From positions 62,001-126,000 of the forward strand of contig NZ_FWFR01000004.1 of NCBI RefSeq assembly GCF_900172325.1: DNA of 64,000 nucleotides. Reading direction: 5' to 3'. This stretch comes from Oceanibacterium hippocampi (GTDB lineage Bacteria; Pseudomonadota; Alphaproteobacteria; Sneathiellales; Sneathiellaceae). Positions within the stretch are counted from its first letter, which is position 1; every line of letters begins with the position of its first letter. The notes under the pieces are model-generated. The model worked only from the letters and a program-made list of their open reading frames with translations. It made no database searches and had not been told where the DNA came from. A program made the position numbers and the translations under genes. Positions 23,839 through 27,307 of the stretch are shown here, piece after piece.

Positions 23839-25431
23839 CTATGCGTCCAGCCAGACGTCCCAGAAGACGTAGCCGTTGAAGTTCTTGTATCCCTTCACGT
23901 GGCTGCGATGGGCATGCCAGGCGAAATAGTCGCCGCATTTGATGTTGACGACATCCTCGTGGAAGATCGTCTGGACGGTTTCGAAGGCCTCTTTCCGTTG
24001 CCCGAAATCGCGCAGCCTGGCGATCTTGTCGAGGGCGGCGTCCATGGCCGGATTGGCATAGGGCGTCCACTTGTCGGTACGGAAGTTCAGGTCCCAGCCG
24101 TAAGGGTCATGCCGGATGCTGTGCTCCATGCTGGACAGGTGCCATTTTGGCCGCAGTTCGTCCTTGCTGACATGGGCGAGCAGCGCGCCCCAGTCGAGAA
24201 CCTCGAGCCGGACATTGAGGCCGAGGCCCTGCAGTTCCTGCTGGATGATCACCGCGCTCTTGTAGAGATTGCTGATCGTCCGCGTCGTCATCAGGACGAT
24301 CTCCTGATTGGCGTAACCCGCGTCGCTGATGAGCTTGCGCGCCTCGTCCTTGGCGTTCTTGTTGTAGTACTGATCGCCGGCCCGGGAGAACCAGACCTGC
24401 TCCTCGAAGGCGAGGCCGGGTGACAGGCGGATCAGGTCGGGATCGCCGATGGTGCCGACCATCACCAGTGCCTGGTCGATGCCGATCTGGATGGCGCGCC
24501 GGATCCGGACGTCGTCGAGCGGCGGATTGTGATGGTTCACCATCATGTTCAGCCAGTTGAGTGGCTTGACCACCGTGCCGGAGTAGCCCGCCGTCGATTC
24601 CAGGCTGCCGCGCATCTCGATCGGCACATTGTCGGCGAAGTCGAAGCGATCGGTCTTCAGACCCGCCTCCTGTGCGCCGGCTTCCGAGATGAAGGTCCAG
24701 ACGACCTCGTCGACATGGGCCGTGCGCCGCCCGCCGAGACCGTCGGCGCCGGTGTAGCGCTCATCGACGCGATAGTCGTCGAAGCGGCCCATGGTCAGGC
24801 TCTCGCCGCGTTTCCATGCCTTCAGCAGGAAGGGGCCGGTACCGATTATTTCGCCGTCCTCGAGCGGCCGGTCCATCGCCGCCTGGGCGATTGCCCGCGG
24901 CAGGATCTTGAAGGCCGAATGAGGCGTGCTGATCTTCTCGAGGAAGGGGCCCGGATCGGACGAGAATTCGAAGACCACCGAATCCTTGCCGGCCGCCTTT
25001 ACCGACGTCACGTTGCCGCCCAGCGTCGCCGCGCGTGGCGAGATCTTCATGAAGCGCGCCCAGGTTGCGGCGACGTCCTCGGCCTCGAGCACGCTGCCGT
25101 CGTGGAAACGGGCGCCCTCGATGATGGTGAAGGTCCAGACCTTGCCGTCGTCGCTGACCGAATGACCGGCCGCCAGTTCGGGGATCAGGCCGTACTTGCC
25201 GTCATAGGTATAGAGCGATTCGAAGATGTGGCTGTGCATCGTGCGAACGATGGTCGCGTTCGTCGTGAATGGATCGAAGGTGTCGATCGTCTCGTTGACC
25301 GCAAGGCGCAGCGTGCCCCCGGATTTCGGCGTGGCCGCCATGAGGTCGGGTGAGAACCCGACCATGTTCGCGGCCACGAGCGCCGTGGTGCTGGCCAGAA
25401 AAGCTCGCCTGGATAGGGGCAACTTCAACAT
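23839..25431 (-). CDS. Peptide-type ABC transporter substrate-binding protein, family 5 (DppA/OppA-like)
   Basis: 530 aa extracytoplasmic binding protein. Two ATGs are possible: 25437 is only 2 nt from the GGGGAGG Shine-Dalgarno, 25431 is about 8 nt away and preferred. The N-terminus has a twin-arginine (Tat) motif, LSRRAFLAST, followed by a hydrophobic segment, so export may be through Tat. SBP_bac_5 blocks: GGTLRLAVNETIDTFDPF, FTIIEGARFHDGSVLEAEDV and IRRAIQIGIDQALV. First gene of the permease operon. The substrate is probably a peptide or an N-acylated or cyclic amino-acid derivative, given the neighbours. Confidence 0.94.
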   Translation of the reverse strand: MLKLPLSRRAFLASTTALVAANMVGFSPDLMAATPKSGGTLRLAVNETIDTFDPFTTNATIVRTMHSHIFESLYTYDGKYGLIPELAAGHSVSDDGKVWTFTIIEGARFHDGSVLEAEDVAATWARFMKISPRAATLGGNVTSVKAAGKDSVVFEFSSDPGPFLEKISTPHSAFKILPRAIAQAAMDRPLEDGEIIGTGPFLLKAWKRGESLTMGRFDDYRVDERYTGADGLGGRRTAHVDEVVWTFISEAGAQEAGLKTDRFDFADNVPIEMRGSLESTAGYSGTVVKPLNWLNMMVNHHNPPLDDVRIRRAIQIGIDQALVMVGTIGDPDLIRLSPGLAFEEQVWFSRAGDQYYNKNAKDEARKLISDAGYANQEIVLMTTRTISNLYKSAVIIQQELQGLGLNVRLEVLDWGALLAHVSKDELRPKWHLSSMEHSIRHDPYGWDLNFRTDKWTPYANPAMDAALDKIARLRDFGQRKEAFETVQTIFHEDVVNIKCGDYFAWHAHRSHVKGYKNFNGYVFWDVWLDA

Positions 25432-25723: not shown

Positions 25724-26737
25724 TCAGCGGAACGCGTCGATGACGGCCTGCGTTTCCGCGCCCGGCATGCCGCGGCTCACGAGGCACACGTCGAGATCGC
25801 GGTCCGCCATAATCCCGAGCGCGCGCCGCATCGCCCCGTGAATCCAGTCGATCTCGTTGCCGAAGGCGCCGCCGCCAAGCAGAGTCAGGAACACGACATT
25901 GGATCCGCCGCCTTGCGCGTTCAGCAGTGCCGCGCGCAGCGTCGCCTCGTAGGCGGCTTCGAGGACCAGTTTCGCGAACGGCGCCCACTCGGCGACCGGG
26001 TGCTTGCCATAGGCGACCGGCAGCGCCGAGCAGAATGCCTGCGAAACCCGTGGCCGATCCGGTCCAATCGCATCGGTGACCTCGACATCGCGGTGGAGCC
26101 CGATGCGGAGCTGTCCCCGTAACTCGTCGATCCGGGCCGGCGTCAAGGTCTCCAGATATCCGGCGATCGCCCGCAGTCCCGGCAGGGTCGCCAATGCGTA
26201 GCCGTTACGCATCGTCCAGAGATCGGCGACCGGCCGACCCGTGCCCTTTGCCAGGGCGTCGCCGAGCTCGGCAAGGCCATCGAGCTGTCGCGTCGCGGTC
26301 TGGCCCGAGCTGTCGCCGACGGGCGCGAAATAGTTCCGGTAGATGGTCGCCGCGCCGGCGGCGATGGCACAGGCCGGGCCTTGCGTATGGTCGTCCTTGT
26401 AAATCGTGACGCCCTGCTCCGGGGTCACGCCGGGGCCCGTCATTTCGAGCAGGTTGAATTGTGAGGCGACCTGGAAGAGCGCGCCGGCATTCTCGGGCAG
26501 GCGATGCAAGGAGCGGACATCGCCGCTCACGACGCTGGCCCGAAGCCGGCCGGGCAGCAGGGCGGGCGATCCTGTCCGCTCGCGCAGCGTCTGCAGCGAT
26601 GCCAGTTCGAGGTCGCCGATCCAGTAACGCGCGCCGTTGACCCGCGAGCGAAGCCAACCGCCCTCGACCTCGAGCCGGGAGCGGGTCTCCTCGTAGCCGG
26701 TTTCCCTGAACCCGGTGAGCTTCTCGAACCAGTCCAT
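25724..26737 (-). CDS. Divergent macrodomain-like protein (putative ADP-ribose-type hydrolase)
   Basis: 337 aa, no signal peptide. The order of blocks fits a macro fold: SGDVRSLH (71-78, like GDIT at the first strand), ASQFNLLEMTGPGVTPEQG (91-109, where macrodomains carry the ADP-ribose loop), a long helix LVLEAAYEATLRAALLNAQG (257-276), then NVVFLTLLGGGAFGNEIDW (280-298), which strongly resembles the sIAFPaIGtGvyG/GAWGCGvFGN strand-loop of macrodomain and PARG-like proteins. The usual ANAANxxLxGGGG sequence is absent, so it is a divergent group. It begins 15 nt after the phosphatase gene, with GAGGAGA as Shine-Dalgarno. Function is inferred, not shown. Confidence 0.65.
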   Translation of the reverse strand: MDWFEKLTGFRETGYEETRSRLEVEGGWLRSRVNGARYWIGDLELASLQTLRERTGSPALLPGRLRASVVSGDVRSLHRLPENAGALFQVASQFNLLEMTGPGVTPEQGVTIYKDDHTQGPACAIAAGAATIYRNYFAPVGDSSGQTATRQLDGLAELGDALAKGTGRPVADLWTMRNGYALATLPGLRAIAGYLETLTPARIDELRGQLRIGLHRDVEVTDAIGPDRPRVSQAFCSALPVAYGKHPVAEWAPFAKLVLEAAYEATLRAALLNAQGGGSNVVFLTLLGGGAFGNEIDWIHGAMRRALGIMADRDLDVCLVSRGMPGAETQAVIDAFR

Positions 26738-26752
26738 GGCCGTCTCCTCGAT

Positions 26753-27307
26753 TCAGACTCCGATCGGGCCGGCAAGCCCGAGGACATACTGTTCCTGCCT
26801 GCGGGTCTCGATCGCGCCCGGGCGTACCTGGCGGACTTGCCGGATTGCTGTCGCCGGCTCCGTGCCCATTTCGATCAGCAGGCGGGCAGCGATCGTGCCG
26901 GCCCGCCCCAACCCGCCGCGACAGTGGACGAGGACATCGCGCCCGTCCCGGAGCAGCCCGCGCAGCTGTTCGCCAGCGCCCTGCCAGTGCCGCTCGAAGT
27001 CCTTGTCCGGTGTGGATACATCGACGATCGGCAGATGAAACCACAGCATGTGCCGGCGGCGCACTTCATCGCCCATCCGCTCGACCCGTAGCAGGCTCAG
27101 TTCCTTCTGCTCGAGCAGAGTCACGACGGCGGCGGCACCCCAGGCGCGGACGGCGTCTAGGTCGAGGGCGATATCGCGATCCCAGTGGCCGCTCATCGCT
27201 CGCGGGTCGCATTTTCCCGGGCAGAAGGTGATACCGACCCGCCCGCAGGTGAGGCCAGCCGAAACCGCGGCGATCTCCAGGGGATGGGTCTCTGACGTTT
27301 TCCTCAT
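26753..27307 (-). CDS. CDKN3-like dual-specificity phosphatase
   Basis: 184 aa. The CX5R phosphatase loop is HCRGGLGRAG with Cys129 and Arg135; the likely general acid is Asp96 in PIVDVSTP. The N-terminal CPGKCDP and SGHWDRDIALDLDAVRAWGA, plus RPGAIETRRQEQYV at the end, match the bacterial CDKN3/kinase-associated-phosphatase-like family. I chose ATG 27307 over TTG 27313; the Shine-Dalgarno is weak. In other bacteria such phosphatases often neighbour ADP-ribosylglycohydrolases (from memory). Here the partner gene, 15 nt downstream, is macrodomain-like. Confidence 0.88.
   Translation of the reverse strand: MRKTSETHPLEIAAVSAGLTCGRVGITFCPGKCDPRAMSGHWDRDIALDLDAVRAWGAAAVVTLLEQKELSLLRVERMGDEVRRRHMLWFHLPIVDVSTPDKDFERHWQGAGEQLRGLLRDGRDVLVHCRGGLGRAGTIAARLLIEMGTEPATAIRQVRQVRPGAIETRRQEQYVLGLAGPIGV

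Follow-up and report, generated by a model that had tools for sequence, protein, structure and literature searches.

The DNA analysed here is a stretch of 64,000 nucleotides from Oceanibacterium hippocampi (hereafter the window). On its minus strand lie two closely spaced genes, the first encoding a 184-aa phosphatase (P0002) and the second, 15 nt further on, a 337-aa protein (P0001). A first-pass annotation of the window had placed two open reading frames at this distance from each other, and both were found. The genes and the features discussed below are as follows.

26753..27307, minus strand: P0002, 184-aa CDKN3/KAP-like Cys-based dual-specificity phosphatase (open reading frame from its ATG; Pfam and fold match)
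26903..26926, minus strand: P-loop HCRGGLGR of P0002, residues 128-135 (H128, C129, R135); HC-x5-R in 24/24 aligned partner phosphatases
26738..26752, minus strand: 15-nt gap with GAGGAG, ribosome-binding-site-like on direct reading by eye
25724..26737, minus strand: P0001, predicted 337-aa macro-fold protein of an unnamed family (open reading frame, AF2, Foldseek)
26441..26473, minus strand: family loop 1 of P0001, QVASQFNLLEM, residues 89-99; in 83/83 relatives, with invariant columns
26366..26386, minus strand: TQGPACA of P0001, residues 118-124; in 83/83 relatives, with QEE in 0/83
25856..25876, minus strand: GGGAFGN of P0001, residues 288-294, phosphate-loop-like, with the macrodomain loop-2 signature G[VIA][YF]G; exact signature in 73/83 relatives, and aligned by hhalign

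The GAGGAG in the gap, as seen by eye, precedes the second ATG, that of the P0001 gene. To one side of the pair are genes for an ABC dipeptide transporter, and to the other is an RND pump. The two genes had been described as having no other partner, and this held in that the immediate neighbours are indeed the ABC and RND genes; however, the RND gene, on the same strand, ends about 75 nt before the ATG of the phosphatase, so the pair may be co-transcribed with it. The GC content of the pair did not differ from that of its surroundings. A terminator-like site was detected beyond the pair (25405-25422, minus strand), and similar sites arise in shuffled sequences as well.

P0002 gave Pfam matches above the cut-offs to PTP-SAK (7.4e-14), CDKN3 (1.2e-10), Tc-R-P and DSPc, and no match to a PADLOC family. 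The nearest PDB structure to its AF2 model (pLDDT 93.5) was human KAP/CDKN3 (1FPZ, E 9.3e-15, TM 0.80), followed by archaeal PTPs. H128, C129 and R135 are in place, so that the HC-X5-R loop was correctly reported as intact, and D96, which is invariant in the 24 aligned partner phosphatases, is the candidate general-acid Asp. P0002 thereby has the P-loop, the acid and the fold of a CDKN3-like dual-specificity phosphatase, in agreement with the identity first proposed for it. It shares these three features with CDKN3/KAP and the archaeal PTPs (PDB 1FPZ, 2I6I), but the identity is only 27%, and P0002 is bacterial and has an ADP-ribose-type protein as its apparent partner.

The P0001 family was matched by no model in Pfam, NCBIfam, PADLOC or PHROG, and sequence searches of the PDB (phmmer and a profile search) returned nothing meaningful, the one weak match being to a CRISPR-associated protein (E 0.43). 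Nevertheless, 58 homologues at 47-70% identity aligned with P0001 over nearly its full length and shared about 50 invariant residues, which rules out chance. Across 85 sequences there is essentially no variation at Q89, S92, Q93, N95, E98, Y113, D116, Q119, C123, R134, N135, N178, Y180, F292 and N294. The loops QxASQFNxLEM and TQGPxCA are common to all 83 relatives, and a GG[AV]FxN loop is likewise a common property of the family.

The AF2 model of P0001, computed from an alignment of 59 sequences, was of high quality (pLDDT 94.7, pTM 0.93). When it was compared with the PDB by Foldseek, the best 13 matches were without exception microbial PARGs (E 1.5e-6 to 2.5e-5, probability 1.00), and those that followed were mostly macrodomains, among them coronavirus and alphavirus domains and E. 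coli YmdB. The TM-scores against PARG were modest (0.40-0.45 by query, 0.48-0.58 by target), as would be expected from the large insertions in P0001. The predicted structure thus places P0001 in the macrodomain superfamily, with its alpha/beta/alpha macro fold, and supports the macro- or PARG-like fold that had been suspected from the GGGAFGN loop and the GDV start. Both elements are present, the latter as SGDV around residues 71-74. The GAFG at residue 290 conforms to the MacroD-type loop-2 motif G[V/I/A][Y/F]G, and hhalign set GGGAFGN against the GCGVFxND loop of PARG.

Outside the phosphate loop, the likeness to known macrodomains was much reduced. The alignment of the family with microbial PARG by hhalign was limited to that loop, and the PARG catalytic motif GGGx6-8QEE was found in 0/83 relatives. 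The usual ANAANxxLxGGGG loop is absent, as had been noted; its apparent counterpart is QVASQFNLLEM, which would correspond to the macrodomain catalytic loop and could share its function. TQGPACA seems to stand where PARGs carry QEE, in a register that was set by eye and that hhalign did not confirm: LNFASARNPGGG...AQEE of PARG can be matched by eye to FQVASQFNLLEM...TQGP of the P0001 family, which would put G120-P121 at the positions of the PARG glutamates. The microbial PARGs (DUF2263/TIGR02452, PF10021; PDB 3SIH, 5ZDB) therefore resemble P0001 in predicted fold and in the GxG[AV]F.N phosphate loop, but P0001 and its relatives lack GGGx6-8QEE, are about 60-70 residues longer and fall below detection by Pfam. 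The MacroD-type loop-1 Nx(6)GG[V/L/I] was present in 7/83 relatives and absent from P0001.

We also considered the arginine-specific MavL/DUF4804 macrodomains (PMC10951314), which, like the P0001 family, form a divergent PARG-like class without both of the classical signatures. The two motifs defined for DUF4804/MavL in PMC10951314, [VIL]xGxGxGx[FWY] and WDxx[SA]xPGN[DE][FY][FWY], each occurred in 0/83 relatives, there was no Pfam match, and structures of the MavL class were absent from the top 50 fold matches listed; membership of P0001 in this class was ruled out by the absent motifs. The ARPP protein, which likewise has an invariant Cys and Gln, was set apart by its fold, which as described in PMC9503650 is unlike the macro fold. 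Judged by its motifs, P0001 is a macrodomain of no known catalytic class among those whose signatures were sought (PARG, MavL/DUF4804, MacroD).

We then asked how constant the pairing is. In 85 loci, all open reading frames, rather than annotated genes, were searched with phosphatase seeds. A phosphatase lay within 1.5 kb of the macro-fold gene in 26 of them, the window included (239 kb searched), and the remaining 543 kb of the same loci contained none. It was found upstream, downstream or on the opposite strand; one locus, that of Mycolicibacterium litorale F4, encodes the two proteins as a single 523-aa fusion. The partner phosphatases fall into two subfamilies that are about 25% identical: one, of the GITFCPGK type, is proteobacterial and the other, of the PGRLLAGEYPG type, mainly actinobacterial. 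When presence or absence of the phosphatase was mapped on the family tree, at least 13 changes of state were required. These results bear out the suggestion that the pair may be an autonomous module and support its being mobile and recurrent, and the survey of neighbours showed that it recurs in many unrelated bacteria rather than in this species only.

The other 59 loci, among them every locus of the cyanobacterial/planctomycete/chloroflexota group, had no detectable phosphatase within 1.5 kb, which indicates that the macro-fold protein does not need a phosphatase beside it in order to act. This absence from most homologous loci, together with the fact that the closest solved structure is that of a protein phosphatase, KAP/CDKN3, would accord with P0002 being a protein phosphatase with a separate role, co-inherited with P0001 on mobile or defence-associated DNA and sharing no pathway with it. 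The tight coupling on one strand, the fusion, the recruitment of two subfamilies and the fact that these phosphatases are also found fused with an ADP-ribose enzyme, described below, all make such an arrangement improbable.

Some further observations were made in these loci. The M. litorale fusion (L076:4698-8746) is flanked by an NrtR-type regulator and an AAA_28-domain protein that by eye resembles NadR, in what looks like a cluster for NAD metabolism. A TPR-like protein lies immediately upstream of one homologue (L005:108-1511), and DUF7229 is fused to a phosphatase reading frame in another locus (L064:4635-5999). In L002 (G059), L081 and L088 a frameshift or stop interrupts the macro-fold gene, and the phosphatase gene beside it is apparently intact; this suggests that some lineages are losing the macro-fold gene, unless the breaks are errors of sequencing.

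Several other genomes of the host's class encode phosphatases that share 46-53% identity with P0002 and are fused to an ADP-ribosylglycohydrolase (PF03747, E 4e-65 to 1e-69), the CDKN3-like phosphatase being the N-terminal part of the fusion (L097-L100). The same phosphatase thus has two structurally unrelated partners, the macro-fold protein and a known ADP-ribosyl hydrolase, and this is the strongest clue to function. Section 3.8 of PMC9503650 (2022) predicts bacterial systems in which an ADP-ribosylglycohydrolase is combined with a phosphatase of the rhodanese/DSP kind and with a regulator, either Nudix or WYL; some also include a calcineurin-type phosphatase. The systems are proposed there to undo phage ADP-ribosylation. 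Compared with these systems as outlined there, the P0001 loci are alike in the adjacent or fused rhodanese/DSP-type phosphatase (the 26 loci counted above), and a minority of them, the window not included, also have NrtR-like or WYL regulators or metallophosphatases nearby. They differ in that the core ADP-ribosylglycohydrolase, of which the host genome has none, is exchanged for the macro-fold protein, although two related loci (L043, L079) hold both, and in that no chaperone gene was identified other than that of a J-domain protein, carried by a single Klebsiella plasmid.

The wider surroundings agreed with the ADP-ribose context that had been proposed. Within 1.5 kb, among the 85 loci, we found NrtR/Nudix-type regulators in 7, WYL regulators in 3, ADP-ribosylglycohydrolase in 2, metallophosphatase in 2 and Sir2 in 2 (L020, L037); an apparent Sir2 fusion in L067 looked like a frame artefact when the reading frame was inspected. 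A Nudix (NrtR) or WYL regulator was present in 10/85 loci within 1.5 kb and in 13 when the whole of each locus is counted; the window has none. The host genome, which is 99% complete so that absences are near-certain rather than absolute, yielded one Sir2, no other Macro match, no Pfam match to ADP-ribosylglycohydrolase (ARH), and no DarT match.

Tpt1/KptA RNA 2'-phosphotransferase is the usual source of ADP-ribose-1''-phosphate. The host genome contained no match to it, so that ADP-ribose-1''-phosphate from RNA repair is unlikely in this organism, and RNA-repair genes were not among the recurrent neighbours. This tells against the version of the original proposal in which the pair processes ADP-ribose-1''-phosphate or RNA phosphates. 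Some macrodomains do act on ADP-ribose-1''-phosphate, according to PMC9503650, and RNA 5'-phosphatases were among the weaker fold matches of P0002; even so, we regard a clean-up pair for ADP-ribose-1''-phosphate or RNA ends, in which one enzyme acts on the side product formed when an RNA 2'-phosphate is removed, as very improbable.

Based on the pairing and the predicted fold, the reading we favour, with moderate confidence, is a two-gene module for reversal or salvage of ADP-ribose, in which P0001, a macrodomain of a new class, acts as an ADP-ribosyl hydrolase in place of an ADP-ribosylglycohydrolase. The ADP-ribosyl linkage hydrolysed by P0001 would be on a protein, or else on a soluble conjugate of ADP-ribose, and P0001 would fill the role taken in other genomes by the unrelated ADP-ribosylglycohydrolase (ARH/ARG); P0002 would then take a phosphate monoester off the released material or the modified target. 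ADP-ribose itself has no phosphate monoester, and a Cys phosphatase cannot act on it. The scheme therefore needs either a substrate with an extra phosphate or a Nudix step; a Nudix enzyme may first split ADP-ribose into AMP and ribose-5-phosphate for P0002. That one enzyme of the pair uses the product of the other, as was originally suggested, is plausible. Both genes, the predicted folds, the conservation and the repeated pairing are what the analysis shows; we infer the hydrolase activity of P0001, ADP-ribose as its ligand, the order of the steps and any action against toxins or phage enzymes that ADP-ribosylate their targets.

Several findings run against the module. The TM-scores against PARG are modest, sequence profiles tie the family to PARG at the phosphate loop only, most loci have no phosphatase nearby, and a third step is required. 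P0001 also has no known catalytic signature (PARG, MavL/DUF4804), and for this reason it could be a binder of ADP-ribose that leaves its ligand uncut. P0001 might thus be a reader, or a metabolite enzyme that cleaves a soluble derivative such as Sir2-made O-acetyl-ADP-ribose or signalling cyclic ADP-ribose; the Sir2 genes adjoining two homologues and the Sir2 of the host genome would fit such a role. However, the very strong conservation of polar residues in P0001 suggests catalysis, and the partner phosphatases are interchangeably fused to ADP-ribosylglycohydrolases, so that we consider a reader or metabolite enzyme a possible but unlikely alternative.

The distribution of the macro-fold family was patchy. 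From a species-level genome collection, 138 relatives were confirmed and the best 80 kept, which makes the set one of closest relatives and not a random sample; the 83 tree sequences drawn from closest relatives span 11 named phyla. In the host's class it occurred in only 4/385 genomes, and 25 genomes of the host's taxonomic family lacked it; it was therefore probably moved horizontally. It was carried by 338 plasmid records (260 Klebsiella, 58 Escherichia), of which 288 were predicted to be conjugative, and one E. coli allele was found in 28/5,426 genomes, on a plasmid every time. Annotated phage records contained none. A single-sequence scan of viral contigs also gave none, and an alignment search of IMG/VR contigs gave four loci: a two-gene copy with the phosphatase on a 119-kb contig (L088) and solo copies in L089-L091. 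Foldseek against viral models recovered A0A5K0UBT0 (Yasminevirus) and A0A2H4UVR4 (Bodo saltans virus) at 32-33% identity and TM 0.85-0.92; these giant-virus proteins clearly belong to the P0001 family but are longer (526-539 aa).

These plasmid, viral-contig and giant-virus homologues, and the anti-ADP-ribosylation systems predicted in the section of PMC9503650 discussed above, are what one might see if the pair served in defence or counter-defence, destroying ADP-ribose-type immune signals or undoing an invader's ADP-ribosylation. Such a role is compatible with the chemistry of the module, but PADLOC matched neither protein, and we hold it to be rather unlikely. More doubtful still is a further reading in which a new catalytic class, with E98, D116 or the invariant C123 replacing the PARG glutamate pair, would work with the Cys phosphatase to reverse an ADP-ribose modification bearing an extra phosphate, for example from NADP, and would be common to bacteria, conjugative plasmids, phages and giant viruses.

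Which ADP-ribose signals can be reversed depends on macrodomain hydrolases. If the class holds, it would add a broadly spread enzyme type that the models of Pfam, NCBIfam, PADLOC and PHROG miss, and would point to a linkage or conjugate so far without an assigned eraser; the family would also explain a hypothetical protein on hundreds of plasmids sequenced from Klebsiella and E. coli. Since phosphatases of one and the same subfamily either adjoin a P0001-type protein or form a fusion with an ADP-ribosyl hydrolase unrelated to it, the pair offers a direct route to asking what the phosphatase does in the predicted anti-ADP-ribosylation systems.

On three Klebsiella and Shigella plasmids that were read (L006, L122, L123), the homologue had no adjoining phosphatase; its neighbours included the J-domain protein, an SRAP (SOS-associated) protein and HHA proteins, with RepA in the Shigella plasmid. 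A0A2H4UUF0 was also among the giant-virus structural matches, one of which is named as RING-finger domain containing.
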